DNA of 14,637 nt from Acidobacteriota bacterium (GTDB lineage Bacteria; Acidobacteriota; Vicinamibacteria; Vicinamibacterales; UBA823): the NCBI GenBank assembly GCA_002720285.1, contig PBHT01000052.1, positions 1 through 14,637 of the forward strand. Direction: 5' to 3'. The position numbers and the translations under genes are program-made. Positions 1-14,637 of this stretch are shown in pieces (the stretch's first letter is position 1; each line of letters starts with the position of its first letter). The notes below the pieces were generated by a model. The model did no database searches. It had not been told where the DNA came from and worked only from the letters and a program-made list of their open reading frames with translations.

Positions 1-108
1 AGTATTTGCGTTTCGAAAGATGATAAAGGCAAGTATCATATATTGACCCCTTGTGGGATTTGTCAGGAGCGATTGTATTATTACGGTGGTGATGTTGCTG
101 TAGCGGTT
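1..108 (+). other. Cytidine-deaminase-like fragment fused in frame to valS
   Basis: Reading frame 1 is open from base 1. Its first ~30 codons give a segment that includes KYHILTPCGICQERLYYYGG. The T-P-C-G-x-C-Q-E-R-L pattern is the second zinc-ligand motif (PCxxC) of the cytidine deaminase family, followed in that family by a GxDVxVAV strand. ValRS has no such motif here: before GD(T/V)AVAVHPDDERY it should read a TTRPETML-type editing-domain sequence. The two homologies meet within bases 88-108, where GDVAVAV fits both families. By hand count, bases 1-100 are 40% G+C against 55% for 101-200. The upstream deaminase half, with the (C/H)AE catalytic motif, lies outside the window. I infer foreign or misjoined DNA rather than a working two-domain enzyme, but a real fusion cannot be excluded. 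Confidence 0.7.
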
Positions 109-2076
109 CATCCAGACGACGAGCGGTATCGATCTGAAGTTGGAAGCTGTTTGCGACTGCCGCTACTAGATCGCGAGCTTCCGATCATTGCCGATGCGGT
201 CGTCGACCAGGAGTTTGGAACTGGTGCTGTTAAGGTGACTCCTGCGCATGATCCCAACGATTTCGCTATAGGTCAGCGTCACGATCTTCCGCAAGTGTCA
301 GTAATCAACGAAGACGGCCGAATGACCGATACGGCTGGACCTTTTACCGGCTTAAAGGTCCTGGAGGCTCGTGGTGCAGTGCTCGATCGTTTGGAACGTG
401 AGGGCGCACTCATCGAGGTCAAGGATCACGAGCATGCCGTGGGCCATTGCCAACGATGTAGTACGGTCGTCGAGCCTCTCGTGTCGACGCAGTGGTTTGT
501 ACGTATTGGCCCACTGGCTAAGCCTGCTATCGATGTTGTACGAGAGGGAAAGATTACGTTTATTCCTGAGAACTGGACGAAGACTTATTTTGAGTGGATG
601 TCTAACATCCACGATTGGTGTATCTCAAGGCAACTCTGGTGGGGGCACCGCATCCCTGCGTGGTATTGCAATTCGTGCGATCAGATTGTAGTCGCAGAAG
701 AGGCCCCAGGGATGTGTGAGTGCGGTGGTTCACTTCAACAGGATACGGATGTTCTGGACACTTGGTTTAGCTCAGGGCTCTGGCCTTTCAGTACGATGGG
801 GTGGCCGGACAGGACGATCGATCTTGAGCGGTACTATCCCACAACCCTCATGCTTACTGGTCTCGACATTATCTTTTTCTGGGTTGCACGAATGATTATG
901 TTCGGGTTGAAGTTCGGGCAAGAAGTGCCGTTCAAGACGGTCTACATTACTTCACTCGTGCGAGATGCCCATGGGCAAAAGATGAGTAAGTCTAAGGGTA
1001 ACGTTGTAAACCCTCTTGAACTTATTGATGAGATCGGTGCTGATGCACTGCGATTCACTCTGACGGCACTCGCATCACCCAGCATGGACATTTCACTGTC
1101 CGAGGGCCGTCTGCGAGGTTCTCGGCAGTTTATTAACAAGTTGTGGAACGCTTCACGTTTTGTCCTAATGCAGCTCCAAGAGGGCGAGGTCAGACCAAAT
1201 CCTCCTGCACGCCCATCGGAACTCGTACACCGATGGATTTTGCATCGCGTCAACGAGCTAAGTGCCGAAGTTGGTGAAGCGCTTGAAACGTTCCGTTTTG
1301 ACGTTGCGGCTGATCGGCTATATCACTTTTTCTGGCACGAGTATGCGGACTGGTACATTGAATTAGTCAAACCTTCTCTCCAAGAAACTGGTCCAGAGCG
1401 TGAGAACGCCATTTCTGTTTTACTGGAGGTTCACGACCGGACCTTAAGGCTTCTCCATCCAATTATTCCGTTTATATCGGAGGAAGTCTGGCAGCAGTTA
1501 CCACAGCGACCTGGCGATGGCCGTTCCCACGATGGCCAGCACCAAACACTGACACTCGCTGCGTTTCCTGGTCCGGAAGCCAAGTGGAAAGATGACGCGG
1601 CTGCAGCCGAGATGACCTTAATCCAAGAGGTTATCACTGCAATCCGCATCGTTCGAGCTGAGTGGGGGGTGCCACCAGCACGAAAAATTAAGGTTTTTAT
1701 TGAAGGTGCAGACAAGCTGTCACAGCGGATTCTTGACGGTTGCGAAACTCATCTCGTCAGACTCGCCGGGCTTGACGAGGTAGAGTTTCAAGATCGCGTA
1801 AAACGTCACCCGGAAACCGTGGTTCGGGTTGTCAGGGACCTTCAGGTGCACGTCCCGCTTGCCGGCATCGTTAATCGTCAGGACGAAGCTAATCGTGTTG
1901 CGAAGGAACTCTTGAAGATTGAAAAACAGCATGCCGCTGACCAAAACAAGCTAGCGAATCCCAAGTTCAGGGAGCGCGCAGCGCCAGAGGTCGTGGCCGA
2001 TACTGCGGCACGGGTTCAGGGGCTGATTAAGCAGCGTGACAAGCTCAAACGCCTTCTGGAGGAGCTTTCCCGGTAA
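1..2076 (+). CDS. valS: Valyl-tRNA synthetase, 5'-truncated, with a non-ValRS N-terminus
   Basis: Cytoplasmic class Ia enzyme that charges tRNA-Val with valine and edits mischarged threonine. True ValRS similarity starts around base 91 (AVAVHPDDERY, within the CP1 editing domain). It continues through the WCISRQLWWGHRIPAWYC segment (about 610-669) and a Cys4 zinc-type site with cysteine codons at 667, 676, 715 and 721. DTDVLDTWFSSGLWPFST follows, then the KMSKS ATP loop at 979-993, the anticodon-binding helical domain, and a C-terminal coiled-coil arm rich in Lys/Glu/Leu ending at TAA 2074-2076. The HIGH motif and the front of the catalytic and editing domains are absent, because bases 1 to ~90 encode cytidine-deaminase-like sequence. 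TTG 43 is an in-frame start-like codon but lies inside that foreign part and is unlikely to be the real start. The gene heads a compact run with nadC overlapping by 1 nt. Identity is certain; the 5' end is not trustworthy. Confidence 0.93.
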   Translation, partial: SICVSKDDKGKYHILTPCGICQERLYYYGGDVAVAVHPDDERYRSEVGSCLRLPLLDRELPIIADAVVDQEFGTGAVKVTPAHDPNDFAIGQRHDLPQVSVINEDGRMTDTAGPFTGLKVLEARGAVLDRLEREGALIEVKDHEHAVGHCQRCSTVVEPLVSTQWFVRIGPLAKPAIDVVREGKITFIPENWTKTYFEWMSNIHDWCISRQLWWGHRIPAWYCNSCDQIVVAEEAPGMCECGGSLQQDTDVLDTWFSSGLWPFSTMGWPDRTIDLERYYPTTLMLTGLDIIFFWVARMIMFGLKFGQEVPFKTVYITSLVRDAHGQKMSKSKGNVVNPLELIDEIGADALRFTLTALASPSMDISLSEGRLRGSRQFINKLWNASRFVLMQLQEGEVRPNPPARPSELVHRWILHRVNELSAEVGEALETFRFDVAADRLYHFFWHEYADWYIELVKPSLQETGPERENAISVLLEVHDRTLRLLHPIIPFISEEVWQQLPQRPGDGRSHDGQHQTLTLAAFPGPEAKWKDDAAAAEMTLIQEVITAIRIVRAEWGVPPARKIKVFIEGADKLSQRILDGCETHLVRLAGLDEVEFQDRVKRHPETVVRVVRDLQVHVPLAGIVNRQDEANRVAKELLKIEKQHAADQNKLANPKFRERAAPEVVADTAARVQGLIKQRDKLKRLLEELSR

Positions 2077-2924
2077 TGACTGAAGCATTGGAGCCGGCAG
2101 TCTACCGGAAGCTTGTCCAACGCGCACTGAAAGAAGATCTCGGCGCTGGTGACATTACGAGCGAAGCGATTGTCGAAACTACCAGCTGGGCCAAGGGTCG
2201 CATTCTCTCAAGGTCTACCTGCGTCCTGGCTGGACTTGAGATCGTAACTGAAGTATTCAGGCAGGTAGATTCCCGCGTCAAGCTAACGTGCCAGCGGTCT
2301 GACGGGGACAGCTGTGTCGCTGGGGAGGTTGTAGCTAATTTGTCAGGAGCTGCGCGATCGATTTTGGCTGGCGAGCGTACTGCGCTGAATTTTCTACAAC
2401 GTCTGTCTGGTATAGCGACCCTTACGCGCGCGTTTGTTGATGCGAGTGCGGGCGTTTTGACTGTGTTAGATACACGTAAGACGACTCCGATGTTACGGAG
2501 GCTGGAAAAATACGCTGTGCGGGTAGGAGGTGGGTCTAACCACCGCTTCGCACTGGATGACGGGGTTTTGATCAAGGATAACCATATTGTCCTTGCTGGG
2601 GGCGTGGCAGTAGCGCTAGATCTGGTGCGGGGGGCCAAGCTTGATAAGTCGATTGAAGTCGAGGTTGACAGCGTCGAGGAAGCCGACGATGCCCTAGATG
2701 CGGGTGCTGATAGGTTACTGGTGGATAACATGACTGATGCTGATGTCCGTGAAGTGGTGCGCCGTAGTCGGGGCCGAGCCAAGATCGAAATATCAGGAGG
2801 CGTGACATTGAAAAGGATGCCAGGCCTGGTCGCAACGGGGGCAGACTACGTCTCGGTCGGTGCGCTAACGCATTCAGCACCGTCGGTTGACTTTAGTCTT
2901 GAGCTTGTGCGGTCAGATCATTGA
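2076..2924 (+). CDS. nadC: Nicotinate-nucleotide pyrophosphorylase (quinolinate phosphoribosyltransferase)
   Basis: Catalyses quinolinate + PRPP to nicotinate mononucleotide, CO2 and PPi, the entry of de novo NAD synthesis; cytoplasmic. The 282-aa length is normal. Family signatures are in order: the N-terminal EDLGAGDITSEA segment (20-31), GERTALNFLQRLSGIAT (99-115), VLDTRKTTPMLRRLEKYAVR (130-149), GGGSNHRFALDD (151-162) and LIKDNH (165-170). The C-terminal barrel has EVEVDS (194-199), DRLLVDNM (212-219), EISGGV (238-243) and the phosphate-binding GADYVSVGALTHS (255-267). The Arg, Lys and His residues expected to bind quinolinate and PRPP are all present. ATG 2076 overlaps the valS stop by one base (TAATG), which indicates translational coupling. 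nadA and nadB are not in the window. Confidence 0.96.
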   Translation: MTEALEPAVYRKLVQRALKEDLGAGDITSEAIVETTSWAKGRILSRSTCVLAGLEIVTEVFRQVDSRVKLTCQRSDGDSCVAGEVVANLSGAARSILAGERTALNFLQRLSGIATLTRAFVDASAGVLTVLDTRKTTPMLRRLEKYAVRVGGGSNHRFALDDGVLIKDNHIVLAGGVAVALDLVRGAKLDKSIEVEVDSVEEADDALDAGADRLLVDNMTDADVREVVRRSRGRAKIEISGGVTLKRMPGLVATGADYVSVGALTHSAPSVDFSLELVRSDH

Positions 2925-3721
2925 GTAACTACGGTCTACCGGTGCCAATGGTGGCTGCGTTTAGAACACATAGGGACCGGCTCGGATGTTTCGTGGGGCG
3001 AGTTACCTACCTGGAAGAAACCGGATCAACAAACGACAAGGCGATCGAACTTGCTCTGGCTGGTGCACCAGAGGGCACGACTGTGGTTGCCGGGGCCCAG
3101 ACCGCTGGGAGAGGTCGCCGCGGACGTTCTTGGTTGTCTCCCCAAGGTGCCGGCCTTTACGCTTCGGTGGTGTTCCGACCTCCACTATTGTCTCCGGTAT
3201 TGACGCTGATGAGCGGCGTCGCGTTGGTCGAAGCGATACGCTGTCGGGCAGGGCTTACAGTGGTGCTCAAATGGCCGAATGACTTAATGGTTAAGCGAGG
3301 TGTTATTAGGAAGCTCGGTGGTATTCTTTCCGAAGCTGGAGCCTCGCCGACTGGTCTTGAGTACGTCGTGGTCGGGTTTGGTATTAATCTGTTAGCGGTG
3401 TCGAATCTGTCGGCACTGTCCGATACGGCTACTTCAATCGAGTCTGAATGTGGCGAAGTTGTGCCATTGGAAGACCTCCTAGTTGAAGTTTTAGCTGCAC
3501 TGTCGGTATGGCGAGCAAGGATGGTCGACGGCCAAATGAATGCTATTTTGAATCGTTGGCGCACACTGTCCCCGTCGAGCATTGCCTCTACGGTCGAACT
3601 GGATGGGCCGTCTGGAGTGCGACGTGGCACGACTGCTGGCATCGACGCTGATGGGGCGTTGTTGGTACGCGTCAATGGAACGACTGAACGGGTTGTTTCT
3701 GGTGAGGTACGCTGGGTTTAA
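2921..3721 (+). CDS. birA: Biotin--[acetyl-CoA-carboxylase] ligase, no DNA-binding domain
   Basis: Activates biotin to biotinyl-5'-AMP and transfers it to the acceptor lysine of biotin carboxyl carrier proteins. The 266 aa hold the catalytic domain directly: ETGSTNDKA (33-41), the adenylate-binding GRGRRGR loop (63-69), KWPNDL (117-122) with GGIL (133-136), and GFGINL (152-157). A small SH3-like C-terminal domain follows (about 222-266). No N-terminal helix-turn-helix precedes the catalytic part, so this is a group I ligase and not the repressor type. The translated start is TTG 2921, which overlaps the nadC stop by 4 nt (TTGA). An in-frame ATG at 2948 (MVAAFRTH) would shorten it by nine residues with no domain loss, so the start is not settled. 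Confidence 0.94.
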   Translation: MSNYGLPVPMVAAFRTHRDRLGCFVGRVTYLEETGSTNDKAIELALAGAPEGTTVVAGAQTAGRGRRGRSWLSPQGAGLYASVVFRPPLLSPVLTLMSGVALVEAIRCRAGLTVVLKWPNDLMVKRGVIRKLGGILSEAGASPTGLEYVVVGFGINLLAVSNLSALSDTATSIESECGEVVPLEDLLVEVLAALSVWRARMVDGQMNAILNRWRTLSPSSIASTVELDGPSGVRRGTTAGIDADGALLVRVNGTTERVVSGEVRWV

Positions 3722-3760
3722 AGCTCACCTGAAGACCATTCTGCTAAGGAACGGTATGAC

Positions 3761-4576
3761 ATGCTCCTGACGGTTGACGTGGGCAATACGAATCTCGTGT
3801 TTGGGGTCTTCAAAGGTGAAACGCTCACCCAAAGTTGGCGTCTTGCCACGCTGCGGGAGCGCACTGCGGATGAGCTCGGTATTCTTGTGAGCGATCTCTT
3901 TGAAGCGAGGGGCCTCGATAAAGCAGAGATTGACGGCGTTATCATGGCATCGGTTGTTCCGTCACTAACCGGCACAATGGCCGAGATGATCAGACGTTAC
4001 TTCGATCTCCAAACCAAGGTCATCGAGCCAGCCGAGGACGCCGTATTCGCGGGTATGCCTATACGCTACGAGCGGCCGAGCGAAGTAGGCGCCGACCGAT
4101 TTGTCAATGGAATCGCTGCCTATGAGCGCTTCGGACGTGTGGACGGCAGGCCGGTTATCATCGTCGACTTTGGCACTGCTACGACGTTCGATTGCATCTC
4201 TTCGCGTGGTGAGTATCTTGGTGGTGTCATTTGTCCAGGCGTTGACATTTCAGCTGATGCGCTATTTCAGCGTGCAGCGCAGCTTCCACGCGTTGATGTC
4301 TGCAAACCCAAGCGCGTCATCGGGCAAACGACGGTCGAGTCGATGCAGTCAGGTTTATTCTACGGATATGTTGCGATGGTCGAGGGTATCGAGGCTCGAC
4401 TACGCGAAGAATTTGAGCCTATGTCTGGTGAGGGTGCACCGATTTGTGTTGCGACCGGAGGAATGGCTGCCGTCGTTGCTGAGCAAACTTCAGTTATAGA
4501 GGCAGTCGTGCCAGAACTCACCTTGTGCGGTCTCCGGATAGTCTGGGAACGTTTTCGTGCCAAGATGTCGCAGTGA
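3761..4576 (+). CDS. coaX: Type III pantothenate kinase
   Basis: Phosphorylates pantothenate to 4'-phosphopantothenate, the first step of coenzyme A synthesis. Members of the ASKHA-fold CoaX family are resistant to CoA feedback and need a monovalent cation. The 271 aa show the family hallmarks: DVGNTNLVFGVF (6-17, ATP phosphate loop), MASVVPSL (62-69), YERPSEVGADRFVN (103-116, with the catalytic Asp of GADR), VDFGTATTFD (135-144), GGVICPGVDIS (154-164) and VATGGMA (230-236). The ATG at 3761 has a TAAGGA ribosome-binding site at 3745-3750, 10 nt upstream. A 39-nt gap separates it from birA, the largest gap in this operon. In many bacteria coaX lies beside birA, as it does here. Confidence 0.96.
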   Translation: MLLTVDVGNTNLVFGVFKGETLTQSWRLATLRERTADELGILVSDLFEARGLDKAEIDGVIMASVVPSLTGTMAEMIRRYFDLQTKVIEPAEDAVFAGMPIRYERPSEVGADRFVNGIAAYERFGRVDGRPVIIVDFGTATTFDCISSRGEYLGGVICPGVDISADALFQRAAQLPRVDVCKPKRVIGQTTVESMQSGLFYGYVAMVEGIEARLREEFEPMSGEGAPICVATGGMAAVVAEQTSVIEAVVPELTLCGLRIVWERFRAKMSQ

Positions 4577-5274
4577 GTGACTACGCTGAATACTGTCGGG
4601 CTGTTGAAACTTACCTCTGTCAGAAGAACCGAGGTCGCCTCATCCGTTTGGTTGGTCCATCTTTTGAGTTGGTACGCGGCTGGGCTGAACAGGGCTTGCC
4701 ACTCAAAATAGTCATGCGCGGTATTGATGAGCGCGTAACACGGTATGAGGCCAAGAGTAAGAGTAGTCGACGGTATCCATTGCATATCGAGTTTTGCGAG
4801 AACGATGTGCTTCGTGCATTTGATGATTGGCGGCGGTCTGTTGGTCCCACGATAGATGTTGACCAGCGCGATGATAGTCGGGCTACGGCTAAGAGCCTAC
4901 CAAAACATCTGACCACTGTGATGTCGAGGCTAACGGCTTGCCTTATGAATCCAGAGCCTTGGCCAGGCCTTCACGTTGTGTTGAATCGCGTCGTTCGTGC
5001 CCTTGATGAACTTCGTGAACCGGCTAAAACAGCACGCGGTTCTGTTCGTTTCGACCTCCTCAAGAGCCTCCAGAATCTAGATGGAGCCATGATGCGGGAT
5101 ATTCGGGTCGTGGCCGACGAACCCACAATTAAAGCTGTGGAGGCTGAAGTGGCGACGGAACTTGGTGTTTTCCGAGAGAGGATGTCACAGTCTGCGTACG
5201 AGGAAGCGACCAAACTTGCAGTCGAACAACGTTTACGGGTTCAGCTCGGCCTACCGCGCTTGAGTTCCACCTAA
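4573..5274 (+). CDS. Conserved-looking protein of unknown function
   Basis: I do not recognise this 233-aa soluble protein. It has no signal peptide or membrane segment. GTG 4573 is the likely start because it overlaps the coaX stop as GTGA; an upstream in-frame ATG at 4525 lies deep inside coaX and is unlikely. The N-terminal ~95 residues are basic and helix-rich, with a run reading GLPLKIVMRGIDERVTRYEA (41-60) followed by PLHIEFCENDVLRAFDDWRR (69-88). A polar linker around 93-110 leads to a helical C-terminal half (about 112-225), with charged Leu/Arg/Glu heptad-like stretches around 136-150 and 186-225. No catalytic motif or metal cluster is evident. Coupled translation with coaX, and abutment with a methyltransferase gene downstream, argue that it is a real gene, perhaps RNA- or ribosome-related, but that role is guesswork. 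Confidence 0.8.
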   Translation: MSDYAEYCRAVETYLCQKNRGRLIRLVGPSFELVRGWAEQGLPLKIVMRGIDERVTRYEAKSKSSRRYPLHIEFCENDVLRAFDDWRRSVGPTIDVDQRDDSRATAKSLPKHLTTVMSRLTACLMNPEPWPGLHVVLNRVVRALDELREPAKTARGSVRFDLLKSLQNLDGAMMRDIRVVADEPTIKAVEAEVATELGVFRERMSQSAYEEATKLAVEQRLRVQLGLPRLSST

Positions 5275-6588
5275 TTGAATCGGTTGAGCTACGAGATGGA
5301 CTCGGGAGCCCTACTTGAGCTAGCGATTGAACGGCCAGCTGTTGGCGGCCGGATGATTGCAAGGCACGACGGCCGTGTAATATTGGTGTCCGGAGCAATT
5401 CCCGGTGAGCGGGTCCGGGCACGGGTCGCACACTCCCGTCGTGGCGTGCCGGTAGCCTCGACCGAAGAGGTCATTCTTGCTGACCATGACCGCCGTCCTG
5501 TGTTGTGCGATCCCTCCTGCGGCGGGAATGTGTTTTCCCATATTGCATATTCGCGGCAACTCTCACTGAAACGTGAAATTGTTGCTGATGCGTTCGCCCG
5601 TATCGGGCGACTTCCGCCTCCAAAAGACATAACGATCGCCCCTTCTTTTGAGCAAGGTTATCGATTACGAGCCCGTTTGTATGTAGCAGGGAAACGGGTG
5701 GGATTTCTACGTAGTGGGTCGCACCACCTATGTGATGCTGCCAAGACAGGACAGCTTTCGACCGAGACTGGGAAAGTTATCGGCGATTTGCAATCTTTAT
5801 TTTCATCGCACATTCCTGACAGCACTATCAGAGCTATTGACCTCGCCGAGTCGGTCGATGGTGAACAGCGAGTAATCCATTGCTGGCTAGACCGAGAGCG
5901 ACCGGCCGATGTCACAGCACTCTCGTCACTGGGCGCTGTATCAGGCATTGGAGGAGTTTCAGCCTCCGTGCGACGCGCTGAACCAGTTCAACATGTGATC
6001 GGTGAGCCAGAAATCATCGAATCTTGGTCTACGATGCTTCCGTCGCTGTCACAAGTGCCTGAAGTTCCTCTCCGTCGACGTCCCTCCGCATTTTTTCAGG
6101 GCAATCGGTTTCTCCTAGCTACGCTCGTCGAGCGCGTTCTTATGGAGCTCACGCCTGGCCCCCTAGTTGACCTCTACGCTGGGGTTGGCGTGTTTGCGTT
6201 GGGAGCTGCAGCGTGTGGGGCGGATGATGTGACAGCCGTAGAAAACGATCCGATTTCTGGGATAGATTTGGTAGCCAATGCACAGTCTGCCGGGGGACGG
6301 GTGCGCGTCGTGAGACGAACAGTCGAGCGCTACCTGCGAGGGAAGCGGCGCAGTTCGCGTGGCGTCTGGATTATCGACCCTCCACGAACCGGGCTGTCGC
6401 GTGAGGCGCGGGTTTTGATTGCGAACACTGGACCATGCCGGCTTGTCTATGTTTCGTGTGACGTTGCCACACTTGCACGCGACCTCTCCGTACTAGGTGG
6501 TGCGGGCTACAGTCTCCGTCGGTTAGACGGCTTCGACTTTTTCCCGAATACGGCTCACGTTGAGTTGATGGCAGTGCTCGAACGTTAG
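5275..6588 (+). CDS. Class I RNA m5U methyltransferase, TrmA/RlmD (RumA) family
   Basis: SAM-dependent uridine C5-methyltransferase acting on rRNA or tRNA. From TTG 5275 (437 aa) the N-terminus is a TRAM-like beta domain (about 13-68, with the family's PGERV at 43-47). A Fe-S segment follows (C78, C82, N85, later C153), then a Rossmann methyltransferase with FFQGN (273-277), DLYAGVGVFAL (299-309), ENDP (323-326), DPPRTGLS (368-375), the nucleophile C395 in YVSCDVATLARDL (392-404) and the C-terminal TAHVEL (426-431) carrying the general-base Glu. The third cluster cysteine of the usual CGGC pattern is Asn (CGGN). Start is uncertain: TTG 5275 directly follows the previous stop, but ATG 5296 (MDSGALLEL) fits the family N-terminus equally well. 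The exact substrate (23S U747/U1939-type or tRNA U54) cannot be told from sequence. The gene ends 8 nt from convergent argS. Confidence 0.9.
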   Translation: MNRLSYEMDSGALLELAIERPAVGGRMIARHDGRVILVSGAIPGERVRARVAHSRRGVPVASTEEVILADHDRRPVLCDPSCGGNVFSHIAYSRQLSLKREIVADAFARIGRLPPPKDITIAPSFEQGYRLRARLYVAGKRVGFLRSGSHHLCDAAKTGQLSTETGKVIGDLQSLFSSHIPDSTIRAIDLAESVDGEQRVIHCWLDRERPADVTALSSLGAVSGIGGVSASVRRAEPVQHVIGEPEIIESWSTMLPSLSQVPEVPLRRRPSAFFQGNRFLLATLVERVLMELTPGPLVDLYAGVGVFALGAAACGADDVTAVENDPISGIDLVANAQSAGGRVRVVRRTVERYLRGKRRSSRGVWIIDPPRTGLSREARVLIANTGPCRLVYVSCDVATLARDLSVLGGAGYSLRRLDGFDFFPNTAHVELMAVLER

Positions 6589-6596
6589 TGCCAGGC

Positions 6597-8612
6597 CTAC
6601 ATTCGAGAGGGAACCTCGCACCCCATCAATCCCAAAGCACGAGTCATTTGCGTCTTAAAGTAGAGCGTCGCTCCTGCCCGCCAGAGTTGGAGCTCTGTCT
6701 GTTCTTCGTTCACGATTGGGTGATGGTGGTAGAAGGTGTTAAATAGTTGCGCCAGCCCGAAAGAGTACTTGGCTAGTATGGATGGCTCGAGACTTCTCAC
6801 GGCCTGATCGACAACCTCGTCGAGTCGTGCAGACTCGAGCACCAGTTCCCATAGGCCATCGCCATCACCGCGGGCTAGGCAATCTGTAGATACTGAACTG
6901 AGCTTTTCAATGATGGCAGGCTCATCAAGGTCTGTCCGCTCGTGCAGTTTCTTGAAGATATTATTCGCACGGACTGCAGCGTATTGTAAATATGGACCAC
7001 TTTCCCCTTCAAAACTCAAAGCTTCGTCAATGTCGAAGACAATGACTTTGCTGCGCGAGAACTTGATCATGAAGTAACGCACAGCTGCGGTGGAAATCAT
7101 ACGGCTGATACTTGCTGACTCGTCAGCAGGTAAATTCGGATTCCTCTTGGTTACTTCACGGCTTGCGGCTTCAACGAGGCGGTCCAGGAGCTCATCGGCC
7201 TTTACGCCGAGGCCTTTTCGGCCTGATACTTCAACGAATGGACGGTCCGTGTCGATGTTTTCTAGGCCTAAAGCTCGCGCCGTGCTGTGGGACAACGTGA
7301 CCATCTCATATGAGAAATGAATTGAGTGCTCGGCTTGGGCGGTATAACCCATAGCCCCTAGGGCCTGCGCGAGTAGTTGCTGTAAATAGGCTTGACGGGT
7401 GTCTATAACGTTGTAGACGGTATCGGCACATCCAAACACCGGTGGAGTAGTTGCAGTAGGTTCGCCCGACGGGTTTGAACTAGTGGCCCACAGCGGTTGG
7501 TCGTTTTCCGAGGTATTAAACGGGCGGTAGAAAAAGTTGGTGCCAAGCAGTCCAAACTTCCAGAACTGGTAGGCAATATCCTTGCCAACGTAGGTCACTG
7601 TGTTGTCCGATCGGACAATCACTTTTAGGCGTACTTCTTCTGGTTCAACAGCCGTGTTGTTCGACGAGTTTTCGGAAGCGGTAGTGGTCTGGTCACTCAA
7701 CTGCATTACCCAGCAGCCCGCGAGTTTACCTTCCTTCGGCTGAAACATTACGCCGGCTTTGGTCAGGATGTCGAAGGCGCGAGCCCAGAAGCGCAGCCTG
7801 AGAATGTCGCCTTCCCAGGTAAGTAGGTCGTAGCTGATCTTCAGTCTTGCCATCGTCGCCAAATGGCAGCGGACGATATGGTCGGCGATTATCGCAGCTG
7901 TGTCGGCCATTTCATTGTTGCCAGCCTCCAGTGCCTGCAAGGCCTCGGATCTCAGGCGGAGTCGGCTTGAATCGGCTTCGTACCACTCGGTTACTCTTGT
8001 ATACAAATCCCAGCAGTAGTGATCGAAGTTTGTTTTCCTGGCTTCTGATTTGACTTTGTCCAGACCCATCGACTCCAGCTCGCGAAAAGCCACGACCATA
8101 TCGGCGACCTGTACTCCCGTATCATCGATGTAGTTTTGAACCTCGACGTGATGGCCTTGGAAACGTAGAAGTTGGCTCAACGTATCTCCGAGCACTGCGT
8201 TCCGGAGGTGCCCGATGTGCGCGGCCTTGTTAGGATTGATCGCCGTGTGTTCAACAATGGTTTTACCTTGACTGACGTCTATGGAATCTTGCTGAACAGG
8301 CAGGTTGATTCGATTGGTCAGAAAAGATCGACGATCGAGAAAGAAGTTAATGTATCCGTTCGGAGAGGGCTCAATGGCGGTAACACCATCAATCTCACCC
8401 AGAGCGTCAACGAGCTCCGTAGAAATTACTCGTGGCGCTTTGCGCGCGACCTTTGCCAGTTCAAATGCTACCGGTACGGCTAGATCGCCAATGGTACGGT
8501 TTGGCGGTATCTGAATAGTAATTGATGGCATTGCGGTGTCGTCGAGACCGTAGAGCCGTTTTGCCACCGCTCTTATTTGTGTCTTTATGAGTTCGTGAAT
8601 CGGAAGAATCAT
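6597..8612 (-). CDS. argS: Arginyl-tRNA synthetase
   Basis: Class Ia enzyme that charges tRNA-Arg and needs the tRNA for arginine activation. The 671 aa are longer than the usual 550-590. Seen in order: an N-terminal Add1-type domain (1-~90) with NRTIGDLAVPVAFELAK (38-54), INPNKAAHIGHLRNAVLGD (125-143) holding the HIGH site as HIGH 132-135, NYIDDTG (160-166), the DTVYNVIDTRQAYL segment (397-410), and SGRKGLGVKADELLDRL (463-479) in place of KMSKS. The C-terminal DALR anticodon domain (about 540-671) contains GPYLQYAAVRAN (539-550). Two Ser/Thr/Asn-rich stretches (308-324 and 364-392) look like loop insertions and account for part of the extra length. ATG 8612 lies 11 nt after the mobA stop, so the two genes form a minus-strand pair. 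Its 3' end converges on the methyltransferase gene with no visible terminator. Confidence 0.96.
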   Translation of the reverse strand: MILPIHELIKTQIRAVAKRLYGLDDTAMPSITIQIPPNRTIGDLAVPVAFELAKVARKAPRVISTELVDALGEIDGVTAIEPSPNGYINFFLDRRSFLTNRINLPVQQDSIDVSQGKTIVEHTAINPNKAAHIGHLRNAVLGDTLSQLLRFQGHHVEVQNYIDDTGVQVADMVVAFRELESMGLDKVKSEARKTNFDHYCWDLYTRVTEWYEADSSRLRLRSEALQALEAGNNEMADTAAIIADHIVRCHLATMARLKISYDLLTWEGDILRLRFWARAFDILTKAGVMFQPKEGKLAGCWVMQLSDQTTTASENSSNNTAVEPEEVRLKVIVRSDNTVTYVGKDIAYQFWKFGLLGTNFFYRPFNTSENDQPLWATSSNPSGEPTATTPPVFGCADTVYNVIDTRQAYLQQLLAQALGAMGYTAQAEHSIHFSYEMVTLSHSTARALGLENIDTDRPFVEVSGRKGLGVKADELLDRLVEAASREVTKRNPNLPADESASISRMISTAAVRYFMIKFSRSKVIVFDIDEALSFEGESGPYLQYAAVRANNIFKKLHERTDLDEPAIIEKLSSVSTDCLARGDGDGLWELVLESARLDEVVDQAVRSLEPSILAKYSFGLAQLFNTFYHHHPIVNEEQTELQLWRAGATLYFKTQMTRALGLMGCEVPSRM

Positions 8613-8623
8613 GTGGTCTGGTT

Positions 8624-9250
8624 CTACTTCTTGGGTAGTTCTGGACCCAATAACATCGAATGACCGGAGTCTAGGTGCTGAAGCGCCTTGGCGTAATCAT
8701 CGGGTGTATTTACGTTGGAGAAGAGTAGGCCGCTCGGATCATGCGGTGCAATCTCGTTTATTCCAATCTCTCGGACTCGCAGGTGCGGCAGTAGTTCCTG
8801 AATCTTGAGCGCGCCGCTGTTGATTTGCTGCCGCAAGCGTGATGCGCACCGTCGGGAGTAACATGCGCACATTGGTTCGTAACCATTGGCGGTTTTCGGA
8901 ATGGTCACATCAGCAGACCGGTCGGCATTGACGAGAAGACGCAAGAACGGTTCATTAATGAACGGCATGTCACACGCCACGACCAGCACCGGGTCCACGG
9001 TGGCGTGCACGAGTGCCGTATAGATTCCACCGATCGCACCAGAACCTGGGATTTCGTCGTTGATCGCCGGTACGCCCAGTCCGGTGTAGGCGCTTTCGTT
9101 GTTGGTGATAATCAGAAGTTTCTCAGTTATCGCTCGGAGAACCGCGATCTGGCGTTCGACGAGACTGGTCGTGCCAAATGGTAGGGTCCCTTTCACTCGC
9201 CCGTTGAGTCGCCGCGCTTCACCACCGGCGATAATGGCCGCCGTACACAT
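8624..9250 (-). CDS. mobA: Molybdenum cofactor guanylyltransferase
   Basis: Transfers GMP from GTP to molybdopterin-bound molybdenum to make the MGD form of the cofactor used by DMSO-reductase-type enzymes. The 208 aa start with the nucleotidyltransferase loop AAIIAGGEARRLNGRVKGTL (4-23; AGGxxxRLNGxxK, catalytic Lys at 20). They continue with DEIPGSGAIGGIYTAL (65-80), the metal-binding Asp of VACDMPF (91-97), YEPMCACYSR (124-133) and NVNTPDD (179-185). These are the MobA signatures and separate it from IspD- or MocA-type relatives, though MocA (cytidylyl) cannot be wholly excluded. ATG 9250 is the first start. No strong ribosome-binding site precedes it, only AAGG about 13 nt upstream on the minus strand. 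No other molybdenum cofactor gene lies nearby, so its pairing with argS looks incidental. Confidence 0.88.
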   Translation of the reverse strand: MCTAAIIAGGEARRLNGRVKGTLPFGTTSLVERQIAVLRAITEKLLIITNNESAYTGLGVPAINDEIPGSGAIGGIYTALVHATVDPVLVVACDMPFINEPFLRLLVNADRSADVTIPKTANGYEPMCACYSRRCASRLRQQINSGALKIQELLPHLRVREIGINEIAPHDPSGLLFSNVNTPDDYAKALQHLDSGHSMLLGPELPKK

Positions 9251-9317
9251 GCGCCAGCGGTAACCTTATCAAAAAAGGCGTGAGGTTCGGAAAAAGTGGG
9301 GAAGGTGTAGTCTCCCG

Positions 9318-9330
9318 AGTTGATTCAACT
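9318..9330. repeat. 13-bp palindrome in the mobA/nfeD spacer
   Basis: AGTTGATTCAACT is a perfect 6-bp inverted repeat around a single central T. It lies in the divergent spacer, 69 bp from the mobA start and 28 bp upstream of the TTGACA element. It could be a regulator half-site pair; a palindrome of this length could also occur by chance. No run of T follows, so it is not a terminator. Confidence 0.35.
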
Positions 9331-9357
9331 TAGCCTGTTTTCATCGATTTTGGTGCG

Positions 9358-9386
9358 TTGACACAGTCTGCGCGCTCCGTTAGCTT
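9358..9386 (+). promoter_or_regulatory. Probable sigma-70-type promoter for nfeD operon
   Basis: A consensus -35 box TTGACA (9358-9363) is followed, after exactly 17 bp, by TAGCTT (9381-9386), which matches TATAAT at three positions including the first two and last. Transcription would begin near 9393, about 34 nt before the nfeD GTG. It is the only good promoter match in the 176-bp spacer on the plus strand. It sits where the downstream run nfeD-stomatin-SPOR-lnt-prfB needs one. I saw no comparable match for mobA on the minus strand. Confidence 0.5.
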
Positions 9387-9403
9387 ACGAAGAGTGAGCG
9401 CGC
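9370..9403. repeat. Perfect 8-bp inverted repeat straddling the nfeD -10 box
   Basis: Arms GCGCGCTC (9370-9377) and GAGCGCGC (9396-9403) are exact reverse complements separated by 18 bp, and the -10-like TAGCTT at 9381-9386 lies between them. Because the predicted start site (~9393) falls inside the loop, the left arm would not be transcribed. A DNA operator for a dimeric repressor therefore fits better than an mRNA hairpin. If transcription instead starts further upstream, it would form a G+C-rich 5' UTR stem ahead of the AAGGGA ribosome-binding site. Confidence 0.5.
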
Positions 9404-9413
9404 TACAGAGGCT

Positions 9414-9419
9414 AAGGGA
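9414..9419 (+). promoter_or_regulatory. Ribosome-binding site setting the nfeD start
   Basis: AAGGGA lies 7 nt before GTG 9427 and 19 nt before the in-frame ATG 9439. The spacing favours the GTG as the start of nfeD. Confidence 0.6.
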
Positions 9420-9426
9420 TTCCTAA

Positions 9427-10842
9427 GTGTTGTTGATTATGAAGAGATTGGCCCGTAAGGCCTGGCTGCAGGCTCTACTCGTTCAGCCTGCCTTAGCGCG
9501 CCTGAGCCCGATCCTGTTTGTCCTATTGTTATTGAGTTCAACGACTGTGTTCAGTCGTCAGACAGTAGCCCCTTCAACATCAAATCGTCCACTCGTGCTG
9601 GTGGCTGAGGTGGATGCCATAATCCATCCTGTTTCGGCTGAGTACATGGTGCAGGTGATTGACCGTGCGGATGCGACCAACGCCGACCTAGTCGTATTCA
9701 CCCTACGGACACCTGGTGGGTTGGTTGAGTCGACACGATCGATCACGTCACGCATGATTTCGGCTAAGACGCCAGTTGTTGTATTCGTAGCTCCAAGTGG
9801 AGCGCGTGCCGCGTCAGCTGGCTTTCTGATCACGATTGCGGCAGACGTGGCTGCCATGGCGCCGGGTACCCACATTGGGGCAGCCCATCCTGTGAGCGGC
9901 AGCGGACAACAGCTCGACGAGGCCGTATCCGAAAAGGCCGCATCGGATGTAGCGGCTTTTGCTCGATCCCTGGCGACTCAACGCAATCGTAATATTGAGT
10001 TCGCTGAGCAGGCAGTAATTGAGAGTAGAGCGTTTACTGAAGACGAAGCTGCTGAGGCTGAACCACCACTGATCGATATCGTCACATCGGACTTAGACAG
10101 TCTCTTAGAGGTGCTCGACGGTCGTTTGATTACCAGGTTTGACGGACGTGAGGTCAGGCTGCGGACGGCCGATGCTCGGGTCGAGCGGCTACAGATGACA
10201 TGGCGCCAGCAAGTGTTGAGCGTGATTGCACGGCCGGAAGTGGCCTACATTCTTTTCAGCCTCGGCACCCTAGGTCTAACGATCGAATTGTGGAATCCTG
10301 GTGCAATTCTACCTGGTGTTGTCGGCGGACTCTGTCTCTTACTGGCGTTCTTCGCGTTTCAGGTGCTGCCGGTGAATTTAGCTGGTGTTCTTCTTATTGG
10401 ATTCGGTCTTGGACTGCTGGTCCTAGAAGCGATGGTAACCAGTTTCGGGATGTTAGCGTTGGGTGGTGTTGTCAGTATCGCTTTAGGTTCGCTCATGTTG
10501 ATCGATTCACCGATGCCAGAGTTGCAAATTGGGTTGTCGATGGTGCTTCCGATGACGCTCGCGCTTTCAGGCATCGTTTTCTTCCTGGCGAGGCTGGGCG
10601 TTGCGGCGCAGCGTCGACGAGCTGTAACGGGCCGTGCGGGCATGATCGATGAGATTGGGCGCGCACTCACGACGTTTGAGGCAGGCGGTTCTGGCCAAGT
10701 CGTGGCCCACGGTGAAATTTGGTCGGCGACAGGCACGGAGCCAATCGCCGAGGGCGACCAGGTTAAGGTGGTCGGAGTGAACGGTCTCACGCTCACTGTC
10801 CGTCGACTGGCGTCAGCCCTACAAGGAGGAGATAAGCAATGA
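9427..10842 (+). CDS. NfeD-type membrane-bound ClpP-class serine protease
   Basis: Membrane protease of the long NfeD (1510-N/C) type, which in studied archaea cleaves the partner stomatin's C-terminal region. The 471 aa have a signal/anchor hydrophobic stretch (about 27-43) and a ClpP/S49-like domain (about 55-235). That domain has the oxyanion TPGG (95-98), the presumed nucleophile Ser130 in GARAASAGF (125-133) and the presumed general-base Lys170 in SEKAASD (168-174). Next come four to five membrane helices (about 273-293, 297-315, 318-336, 340-358, 370-392), then a small OB-fold NfeD domain (about 401-462) with [13 protein letters not shown] 9427 is chosen on its ribosome-binding site; ATG 9439 is the alternative. 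The stop overlaps the stomatin start by 4 nt, the classic nfeD-stomatin pairing. Confidence 0.9.
10823..10829 (+). promoter_or_regulatory. Strong Shine-Dalgarno for the stomatin gene
   Basis: AAGGAGG at 10823-10829, inside the nfeD 3' end, lies 9 nt before ATG 10839. It is the best ribosome-binding site in the window. It suggests that the SPFH protein is made independently and in excess over NfeD, although the two genes overlap. Confidence 0.75.
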
Positions 10843-11609
10843 ATGTATCCCCTATTGCACTATTCGGCCTGATCGTGGTGTTGTACTTGATCAGCTCAAT
10901 CAAGATTTTGAATGAGTATGAGCGTGGCGTCATCTTCCGTCTTGGCAAGTTGCTACCACATTCGAAGGGTCCTGGCGTGATCCTTGTCTTTGCACCGATT
11001 GATCGTATTGTTCGGGTGAGCCTCCGTACGATCGTGATGGACGTGCCGCCACAAGACGTTATCACGCGGGACAATGTTTCCGTGAAGGTCAATGCAGTTG
11101 TCTATTTCCGCGTAATGGAACCTGGCCGTGCCATTGTCGAAGTTGAGAATTTCCATTATGCGACGTCCCAATTAGCGCAGACTACCTTACGCAGCGTGCT
11201 TGGCCAGGTGGAGCTTGACGGCCTGTTGTCCGAGCGTGAACGTCTCAATCAAGACCTCCAAGGCATTCTCGATCAAAATACCGACGCGTGGGGAATTAAG
11301 GTTTCAGCAGTTGAGGTTAAACACGTCGATCTTCCACCCGACATGCAGCGAGCGATGGCTCGACAGGCTGAGGCGGAACGCGAGAAACGTGCTAAAATCA
11401 TTCATGCCGAGGGTGAGTACACTGCGTCGGAGCAACTTTCGCAGGCGGCGGCCGTACTCGCCGCTGAGCCGAATGCAATTACGCTCCGATACCTGCAGAC
11501 TCTGACCGAGATTGCCTCCGAGAAGAACTCGACGATTGTCTTTCCGTTACCGGTCGAGTTGTTGAACATGTTGCGCAAGACCTCTGGAGCGAGTGAGCCG
11601 TCGACATAA
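10839..11609 (+). CDS. Stomatin/slipin SPFH-domain membrane protein
   Basis: A 256-aa slipin-type SPFH protein expected to oligomerise on the inner membrane and organise membrane microdomains, probably with NfeD. It has one N-terminal membrane segment (about 5-20) and an SPFH core starting [20 protein letters not shown] (21-40). [14 protein letters not shown] (44-57) follows, then the conserved [13 protein letters not shown] (80-92), [20 protein letters not shown] (115-134) and [16 protein letters not shown] (151-166). A charged Ala/Glu/Arg coiled coil (about 167-210) and a short hydrophobic tail with the STIVFPLP segment (231-238) complete it. That tail corresponds to the region cut by NfeD in the studied archaeal pair. 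ATG 10839 overlaps the nfeD stop as ATGA. HflK/HflC is less likely because of the NfeD partner. Confidence 0.93.
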
Positions 11610-11622
11610 CAGGCATCAGATC

Positions 11623-12186
11623 ATGTCGGATGACGGTTTTCGTGAAATTCAGCTGAGTGGCAAGCAACTCGTTTTCCTCTTTATGGCCACGACTGTTGTG
11701 TCCGTGGCGATCTTTCTGTGTGGTGTGCTCGTTGGGCGCGGTGTTGGTGCTCGCCAAGCGCCGGGGTCAACACCGATTGCGGATAGTATCGGTCGAGGTG
11801 GCCAAGTAATTGGGGAGGAGCTGCCTGATTGGACTCAGCCTATTGACGAGGCTAATACGGAAATCGCAGACGAGTTATACGCTGAACCCTCTGAATCGTC
11901 CCTGGAAGACGAACGTGCCGCGACCATAGGTCCCAGCGAGCCAGTGTTGCCATTGGAACCTTTTACGGTACAGGTAGCAGCACTAACCGGTCGTGCTGGC
12001 GCCGAGGTAATTCGAGACCAACTTTCGGATAAAGGATACCCCGCTTATTTGCTCGATCCCCCGCCTGGCGTACCAGGGGAGATGTTTCGTGTCCGCGTCG
12101 GCCGGTATCAGGACCGTGCTGATGCCGAGCACGTTCGTCGTCGTCTCGAGCAGGAAGAAAAGTTCAAGCCCTGGATTACCCGCTAG
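11623..12186 (+). CDS. Single-pass membrane protein with C-terminal SPOR domain
   Basis: A 187-aa bitopic protein. A short cytoplasmic N-terminus (MSDDGFREIQLSGKQ) is followed by one membrane helix (about 16-39, ending LVGRGVGAR). An acidic, proline-containing extracytoplasmic linker (about 45-110) leads to a SPOR domain (about 112-187) with PFTVQVAAL, two helices and the RVRVGRYQDRADAEHVRRRL strand-helix. SPOR domains bind glycan strands lacking stem peptides, typically at division sites. The role here, perhaps septal targeting of envelope factors, is inference. ATG 11623 is favoured; the longer GTG 11593 would overlap the stomatin gene by 17 nt and add ten basic residues. The C-terminus ends at TAG 12184-12186, very close to or inside the start of lnt. 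Confidence 0.88.
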   Translation: MSDDGFREIQLSGKQLVFLFMATTVVSVAIFLCGVLVGRGVGARQAPGSTPIADSIGRGGQVIGEELPDWTQPIDEANTEIADELYAEPSESSLEDERAATIGPSEPVLPLEPFTVQVAALTGRAGAEVIRDQLSDKGYPAYLLDPPPGVPGEMFRVRVGRYQDRADAEHVRRRLEQEEKFKPWITR

Positions 12187-13676
12187 CCATTCTTTCCGGC
12201 GTTCTTCTCGCACTGAGTTTTCCAAAATTCGGCCAACCCGCGTTGGCTTGGGTTGCGCTGGTGCCACTACTTGCAGCGCTAGGTAGTGCGAAAGGTATAC
12301 AAGTCCAGCGTGCATTCGGGCTCGGCTTGGCCACGGGTGCAGTCGCATTTGCCGGAACGCTCTACTGGATTAGTGAAGTTATGATGACTTACGGCGGTTT
12401 GGCATGGCCAACGGCCTTGGCTGTGAACGCTCTACTCGTATTTTACTTATCTATTTTTGTAGGGCTGTTCGCAGTGATGGCGATCCGCGGCATCTCAATT
12501 AGCGTAACTGTTGGCCTTGTTACCACATCGGCCGCGTGGGTTGTTAGCGAGTTTGGCCGAGGTTACCTGTTCGGCGGTTTCCCCTGGGCACTTCTCGGCT
12601 ATTCCCAGGCTGAAGTTCTACCCGTAGCCCAGTTGGCGAGCGTGTTCGGAGTCTACGGTATTTCATTTCTCATCGTCCTTGTTAATGGAGCTTTGGCCAG
12701 TATTGCCGTTAGAGTGGATCGCCGACGGCTGACTACTGGCGGTGTTGTCCTTGGCATTGCAGTCTTAATTGCGTGTTGGGGCCAATGGCGTCTTAGTCAA
12801 AATACACTGATTAACGAAGGTGAACCAGTTCGCGTAGCGATGATCCAAGGTAACGTGGCACAGGATCAAAAACATGATCCCGGTTTTCGGACGTCCATCC
12901 TGGACACTTACCTGTCGGCGAGTCGCTCCGCGGCCGCGGATGGTGCGAAGCTCTTGATTTGGCCGGAATCGGCGCTTCCGCTCCCGTTTGATCAGGATGT
13001 TGGCACGGCTGTAGCAATTCAAAATCTTGCCAAGGAAACCGGTTCCCATATCCTGTTCGGTAGTGAAGAGAGTGAAGAAACCGACGGTTTTCACTACTAC
13101 AATTCAGCCTTTCACGTTGGTCCTACTGGGATTGACCGACCGGCCTACCGGAAAATTCATCTTGTGCCGTTCGGAGAGTATGTGCCGTTTAGACGCTTTC
13201 TGTTTTTTGCCGATAAGCTTGTTGAAAGTGTGCCGGATTTTTCACCTGGTACCGAAACCATCACCTTTTCGATGAACGGGCATCGATTCAGTAGCGCGAT
13301 ATGCTACGAGGTGGTATATCCAAGTTTGGTGCGTTCGGCTGTTTCGGCGGGCAGTGAACTCCTTACAACGATCACGAACGATGCTTGGTTTGGGCGAACA
13401 TCAGCACCGCACCAGCATTTTTCGCAGGCGGCCATGCGGGCCATCGAGCAGGGACGCTACCTTGTACGTGCCGCGAACACCGGTATAAGCGGTGTGGTCG
13501 ATCCCTACGGCCGTGTGCTTGCACAGACCGAATTGTTTGAAAATGTTAGAGTCGTAGCTGATGTGCGATGGATTAATGTCAAGACGGTATACGGGTGGAC
13601 GGGTGATTTGTTTGTCTATCTTTGTCTCATGCTAGTGATTTGTGTTTTGGTATTTGGTGTGCGGGCGAGCTGGTAA
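12171..13676 (+). CDS. lnt: Apolipoprotein N-acyltransferase
   Basis: Inner-membrane enzyme adding the third acyl chain to the N-terminal cysteine of lipoproteins, marking a Gram-negative-type envelope. It has several N-terminal membrane helices, then a nitrilase-fold periplasmic domain. The triad is visible: Glu in IWPESALPLPFD (codon 12966-12968), Lys in YRKIHLVPFGEYVPF (13152-13154) and Cys in SAICYEVVYP (13302-13304). NDAWFGRTSAPHQH and AANTGISGVVDPYGRV follow, and one final membrane helix closes the protein. The first ATG/GTG/TTG is TTG 12243, but the frame upstream encodes the family's typical first helix (LSGVLLALSFPKFGQPALAW). I therefore place the start at CTG 12171 (501 aa, overlapping the SPOR gene by 16 nt), with ATT 12189 as the alternative. 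TAA at 13674. Confidence 0.93.
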   Translation: MDYPLAILSGVLLALSFPKFGQPALAWVALVPLLAALGSAKGIQVQRAFGLGLATGAVAFAGTLYWISEVMMTYGGLAWPTALAVNALLVFYLSIFVGLFAVMAIRGISISVTVGLVTTSAAWVVSEFGRGYLFGGFPWALLGYSQAEVLPVAQLASVFGVYGISFLIVLVNGALASIAVRVDRRRLTTGGVVLGIAVLIACWGQWRLSQNTLINEGEPVRVAMIQGNVAQDQKHDPGFRTSILDTYLSASRSAAADGAKLLIWPESALPLPFDQDVGTAVAIQNLAKETGSHILFGSEESEETDGFHYYNSAFHVGPTGIDRPAYRKIHLVPFGEYVPFRRFLFFADKLVESVPDFSPGTETITFSMNGHRFSSAICYEVVYPSLVRSAVSAGSELLTTITNDAWFGRTSAPHQHFSQAAMRAIEQGRYLVRAANTGISGVVDPYGRVLAQTELFENVRVVADVRWINVKTVYGWTGDLFVYLCLMLVICVLVFGVRASW

Positions 13677-13694
13677 GATCCAGAGGGAGCAAGT

Positions 13695-14637
13695 GTGTCT
13701 GCGACGCGTGAAGAACAATTTTCTCGGTATCAAGATTTAATTAAGCGGGCTAAGGATTTGCGGGGTTATCTTTGACGCTGCTAGTTCAGCAGGCGAACTC
13801 GCTAAGTTGGAATCCCAGGCGGCCGCGCCAGACTTTTGGAAGGACCAGATGGCGGCCCAACGTGTGCTTCAGCGCCAGCGGAGGCTCAAGGATGATCGTG
13901 TGCTCGTCGACTCACTACAGCAGCGTAGCGAGGATCTCTCGGTACTAATTGACTGGGCCGAGCAAGGTGAGCTTGTTGATGATGACCTAACCCGAGCTCT
14001 CGATGAGTTGAACGCTGAGGTTGAGGCCGCTGAGATAAAGCGGATGCTAGGTGGCGAGCACGATCGTAAGAGTGCCATTCTTACAATTCATCCAGGTGCT
14101 GGCGGTACTGAATCCCAGGATTGGGCTGAGATGCTGCTCCGACTCTATCTGCGTTGGACTGAGCAGCGTGGATTCAAACGCGAAGTAATCGACCTCCAAC
14201 CGGGCGACGAAGCTGGGATCAAAAGCGTTACATTGACGGTAAACGGTGATTATGCCTACGGCCTGCTACTGGCCGAAGCCGGTGTGCATCGACTTGTGCG
14301 GATCTCTCCGTACGACCAGGCAGGCCGTCGACATACTTCGTTCGCCTCTGTTTTTGTCTGGCCTGAATTACCCGATGACGTTGAGGTCGAGATCGATGAC
14401 AAGGACCTTCGTATTGACACCTATCGTTCAAGTGGCGCCGGTGGTCAGCACGTGAACGTGACTGATTCCGCTGTACGAATCACCCACATTCCAACTGGTA
14501 TTGTTGTTTCGTGTCAGAACGAACGGTCGCAGCATCGAAACCGTGACTCGGCCATGAAGGTATTGCGCGCGCGACTTTACGATATGAAGTTAAAAGAACA
14601 GCAAGCTAAACTGGAACAAATAGGTGGAGAGAAAAAA
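13695..14637 (+). CDS. prfB: Peptide chain release factor 2, made by +1 frameshift; 3' end outside window
   Basis: Recognises UGA and UAA stop codons and triggers peptide release. GTG 13695 opens a 26-codon zero-frame ORF ending in LRGYL then TGA (13773-13775); shifting +1 at CTT gives GAC and an open frame of 288 codons to the window end. The AGAGGGAG ribosome-binding site is at 13682-13689, and the lnt stop is 18 nt upstream of the GTG. Seen in order: the helical N-terminal domain, [19 protein letters not shown], the stop-codon-reading tripeptide SPY (14305-14313; SPF is usual for RF2), [16 protein letters not shown], and the peptidyl-transferase GGQ at 14440-14448 in [10 protein letters not shown]. 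About 50 C-terminal residues are missing by comparison with the ~365-aa family length. Expression should be autoregulated: scarce RF2 lets the ribosome pause at the TGA and shift. Confidence 0.96.
13762..13776 (+). promoter_or_regulatory. Programmed +1 frameshift site of prfB
   Basis: The slippery CTT (13770-13772), TGA (13773-13775) and following C (13776) match the canonical CTT-TGA-C. The preceding codons CGG GGT TAT compare with AGG GGG TAT in E. coli. The internal Shine-Dalgarno is therefore reduced to GGGG (13762-13765), with its last G replaced by T. The peptide context RGYL/D is preserved. Confidence 0.92.

Follow-up and report, generated by a model that had tools for sequence, protein, structure and literature searches.

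An apparent cytidine deaminase–valyl-tRNA synthetase fusion at a contig end is very likely an assembly artefact

The stretch of DNA that we analyzed (the window, 14,637 bases) is a complete contig, C52 (positions 1–14637), of genome bin G000 (1.50 Mb in 53 contigs, 81.4% complete). The deaminase–valyl-tRNA synthetase (ValRS) fusion protein that it appears to encode is very likely an artefact: judging from the sequence comparisons below, bases 1–87 are almost certainly an assembly chimera at the contig end. The valS gene of this organism is split over the end of another contig, C24, and the start of C52. Bases 1–87 are most likely part of another organism's cytidine deaminase gene. The features are listed in Table 1.

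Table 1. Features around the junction, in window coordinates
Feature	Coordinates	Strand	Basis
Cytidine deaminase gene fragment, foreign; 29 codons without start or stop	1..87	+	NF006155; identical to P0001 residues 75–103
Junction word GDVAVAV, 21 nt; likely site of the false link	88..108	+	Peptide common to P0001 and ValRS, in the same frame
Overlap with the 3' end of C24 (C24:27246–27400)	88..242	+	150/155 identical, 5 synonymous differences
valS 3' part, 662 codons plus stop, 5'-truncated by the contig end	88..2076	+	ORF, Pfam, NCBIfam, relatives

Two genes in one reading frame

A reading frame is open from base 1 to base 2076 (691 amino acids in the ORF list for the window), and the NCBIfam models divide it in two. 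Residues 1–41 match cytidine deaminase NF006155 (profile positions 71–112 of 136, E = 7.2e-13), and residues 30–684 match valine--tRNA ligase NF004349 (profile positions 218–858 of 860, E = 1.3e-243; 811.1 bits, above the cut-off of 704). A sequence search against solved structures divides the frame alike, with residues 30–688 matching ValRS (1gax) and residues 1–36 matching a putative blasticidin S deaminase (3b8f). With Pfam, at E values up to 10, no deaminase family matched this frame; the matches were to synthetase families, besides a few weak unrelated ones under the cut-off. (Rfam gave no matches in the window at its gathering thresholds.) The first-pass annotation, which was made from the letters alone, had described a deaminase-like sequence running in frame into ValRS, and the NCBIfam split of the frame confirms this.

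From base 88 to base 2076, the window is an ordinary 3' part of a valine--tRNA ligase gene (NF004349 / TIGR00422; 1gax). It encodes the remainder of the editing domain, the KMSKS region, the anticodon-binding domain, and the C-terminal arm; the translation contains QKMSKSKGN, and PF08264 and PF10458 exceed their cut-offs. The ValRS match begins only at profile position 218, so the front of ValRS is absent from the window, as had also been noticed in the first pass.

The base composition differs between the two parts. G+C is 0.40 in bases 1–100 and 0.55 in bases 101–200, so that the step reported earlier (40% to 55%) is reproduced. Bases 1–87 alone have a G+C of 0.379, as compared to 0.54, and none of the 4,821 stretches of 87 bases in the rest of the window (taken at every third start) is as poor in G+C.

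The 5' part of valS is on another contig

In contrast to the usual valine--tRNA ligase gene, the 5' part of this one sits on C24, a 27,400-base contig of the same bin. When we searched the bin with the ValRS family model, the N-terminal part (profile positions 2–268) was found at C24:26589–27398, at the 3' end of the contig. The catalytic front with its HIGH motif, which the window's frame is missing, is there as well: the C24 ORF (L003:7569–8399) contains LHIGH. The last 155 bases of C24 are the only other match in G000 to window 1–2076 (Table 1), and the five differences are at window positions 102, 117, 132, 168, and 192. Left of base 88 the similarity ends abruptly: C24 reads VATTRPETML, as in a normal ValRS, and the window reads deaminase sequence. 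Finally, the codons add up. C24 contributes 226 codons upstream of the overlap and the window another 662, for a total of 888, which is the length of valS in the same-genus genomes G001, G002, and G003.

valS in related genomes

We searched for ValRS in 40 genomes (G000 among them) and found matches of 96–98% identity in three of the four same-genus genomes. In each of these three (G001, G002, and G003), valS is one gene whose 888 codons run without interruption. In the fourth genome, G004 (61% complete), there were only two weak matches, both within a 943-amino-acid ORF and neither of ValRS grade. Window 88–14637 aligns to G001 as one gapless block of 14,550 bases (98.5% identity). G003 also aligns from base 88, in one block with one gap (95.8%), and G002 aligns from base 88 in two pieces that reach the end of the G002 contig. 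In all three genomes, the tail of C24 adjoins the window's alignment, with an overlap of 155 bases each time. Before base 88 the window differs from C24 and from all three genomes, and from base 88 on it agrees with them. In the six same-genus stretches that we fetched, the deaminase scrap (1–87) has only chance words of 10–14 bases.

We also compared ValRS proteins more broadly (7,999 relatives were scored, and 120 are listed). The closest listed relatives cover 73–74% of residues 1–110, which is expected if the matches begin at residue 30. Other listed relatives cover up to 98% of these residues, at about 60% identity. In 104 of the 120 listed relatives, there is a TRPET with a D shortly after it; the other 16 include P0040, whose sequence starts inside the motif. 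At the place equivalent to the junction, TRPETMLGD is present in all 20 of the ValRS sequences that we inspected (of the 120). The first-pass annotation had asked whether PCGICQERL might be native to ValRS homologues, and PCGxCQE was found in none of the 120 listed relatives (of the 7,999 scored).

A native fusion of a deaminase to a truncated ValRS would account for the reading frame being open over the junction. However, the ValRS part would have no catalytic front, which sits on C24; three same-genus genomes have a standard 888-amino-acid ValRS; PCGxCQE is not seen among the listed relatives; and the solved structures split the frame (1gax for residues 30–688 and 3b8f for residues 1–36). 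We give a native fusion practically no chance. With the native valS sequence visible both in the relatives and on C24, we dropped a genuine fusion as a candidate.

The deaminase fragment

A search with residues 1–40, with length limits for small proteins, found 11 proteins, all of 133–140 amino acids. One of these, P0001, is a free-standing deaminase of 140 amino acids that is identical to window residues 1–36. After residue 36, P0001 reads VPHEED and ValRS reads VHPDDE. The C-terminal PCGxCQERL segment of cytidine deaminase has a zinc-ligand role, and LTPCGICQERL is invariant across eight aligned deaminases and the window.

Window 1–87 is a fragment and not a complete deaminase gene. It resembles the NF006155 (PRK08298) family, P0001, and their relatives in that residues 1–29, including LTPCGICQERL, are identical to P0001, but of the 140 residues of P0001, the window holds only 29 (36 counting the shared word). 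The NF006155 scores (48.7 and 52.8 bits) are below the cut-off of 129, and the N-terminal part is missing.

Whose gene is it? The assembler might have joined valS to this same organism's own deaminase gene. We found no further piece of the NF006155 family in G000, and this absence is weak because G000 is only 81.4% complete, which leaves room for such a gene. On the other hand, the family is absent from all four same-genus genomes (G001–G004) and from all eight family-level genomes (G001–G008, which include those four; four of the eight are 61–85% complete), and a G+C of 0.38 versus 0.54 also argues against it. An own deaminase gene is therefore very unlikely to be the source. The family was found in 28 of the 31 order-level genomes (G009–G039), with scores below the family cut-off; across the 40 genomes, there were 29 matches, namely these 28 and the window's fragment.

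The DNA of P0001 was sought in several collections. No P0001 locus was confirmed in genome_contigs (30 pattern stretches) or in viral_contigs (6), and an exact 38-base pattern (window 50–87) is absent from viral_contigs. With tblastn, there were no hits in phages, and 28 plasmid records were found, all below 60% identity. A profile of six deaminases confirmed 101 loci in genome_contigs; the top one of the best 80 is 60% identical and is from a Pseudobdellovibrionaceae MAG.

The shared word and the proposed mechanism

The first-pass annotation had placed the junction in GDVAVAV, within bases 1–120. The placement stands and can be refined to 87 foreign bases and a shared word (88–108). GDVAVAV (residues 30–36) is common to P0001 and ValRS and is in frame in both genes, and it is only for this reason that the frame is open across the join. 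Within G000, and with up to two mismatches, the junction word is present only in the window and at C24:27246–27266. As the window and its relatives already differ at base 87, an exact shared word could be no longer than 21 nucleotides, or at most 22. On the deaminase side the identity is at the peptide level, and as the DNA of P0001 was not located, we infer both the nucleotide match and the length of the word. Assemblers are commonly run with k = 21, and the 21 bases of GDVAVAV would fit an erroneous join through a short k-mer.

We propose that differences between strains of the population interrupted the assembly graph at valS. From this dead end, the shared word, of no more than 21–22 nucleotides, would have led the assembler to another community member's deaminase gene, and its path would have halted after 87 deaminase bases. 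(Because the window is the entire contig, the junction lies 87 bases from the contig end.) If the contig end is chimeric, then at least one of the joined partners should have a native continuation in the bin or in relatives, and we found one for valS at the end of C24 and in G001, G002, and G003. A word common to both genes should be present at the join, and GDVAVAV is such a word, at the peptide level. The overlap with C24, the three collinear genomes, and the separate deaminase P0001 all favor the reading that the first pass had considered simplest, in which a short word common to both genes produced a chimeric contig end.

Chimeric contigs that arise from related strains and shared k-mers in short-read metagenome assembly are described in PMC7299287. 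As in that description, two genomes are joined here at a shared word with strain variants present, and there is no substantial difference from the contigs it describes; here, the in-frame join at the contig end mimics a fusion gene.

Strain haplotypes and recombination

Window 88–242 is identical to G002 over all 155 positions, and the overlapping part of C24 has one difference from G001. Given this identity to G002 and the five differences from C24, the end of C52 comes from another haplotype than the end of C24. From about base 488 onward, the window is mostly nearer to G001. C24 contains 386 N in its 27,400 bases (359 of the 372 runs are of a single base), and the window contains none. This would fit a consensus built from several strains, in which sites that vary or have low coverage may have been masked as N; alternatively, they may reflect masking on the database side.

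Another explanation for the join is that DNA in a minor strain did recombine, which put deaminase DNA beside the 3' part of valS and destroyed that copy. The assembled sequence does read this way, and the haplotype difference speaks for it. However, the junction is at a contig end and on a peptide word that is common to both genes. Furthermore, valS is generally essential, which counts against its destruction, and our search of the bin turned up no other full-length ValRS: with the ValRS family model, the remaining matches in G000 lie in ORFs of 943 amino acids (C21) and 856 amino acids (C16), both with low scores, which we take to be related class I synthetases. (Of the full-length valS that the first pass had thought to look for elsewhere in G000, the missing 5' part was found, on C24, and a second complete copy was not.) Also, valS is intact in three same-genus genomes, and the deaminase motif is not found among the 120 listed ValRS relatives. 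We consider such a recombination highly improbable. We hold it exceedingly improbable that a minor strain has a real recombined locus, with foreign deaminase DNA joined to valS at a 21-base word, along with an intact valS elsewhere. The two alternatives raised in the first pass, a recombination that destroyed valS and a novel fusion, are thus unsupported, and we favor an assembly chimera.

A prfB-like frame at the 3' end of the contig

At its other end, the window contains a prfB-like frame (13695–14637) that is interrupted by the contig end and that, by its sequence, is presumably prfB (release factor 2). The frame that starts at GTG-13695 enters GGGG-TTAT-CTT-TGA-C at 13762–13776, and the long ORF goes on in the +1 frame. 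prfB has a well-known programmed frameshift, and 13762–13776 looks like this site. Given the apparent frameshift, the true start is probably other than TTG-13807, where the ORF list puts it.

Implications for annotation

Mechanical gene calling on this contig leads either to a false ValRS of 677 amino acids from TTG 43 or to a false deaminase–ValRS fusion. The start codon of the TTG-43 ORF (677 amino acids) is inside the deaminase fragment, and the valS sequence begins at base 88, so the earlier warning that TTG 43 is not the true N-terminus was justified. We have high confidence, from comparing sequences, that the correct record would be a 5'-truncated valS from base 88 that continues C24, with bases 1–87 trimmed and TTG 43 treated as spurious. 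The significance of the finding is for annotation only: this is a clean case of an in-frame chimera that resembles a fusion gene, and an uncorrected record would wrongly credit this bacterium with a deaminase.
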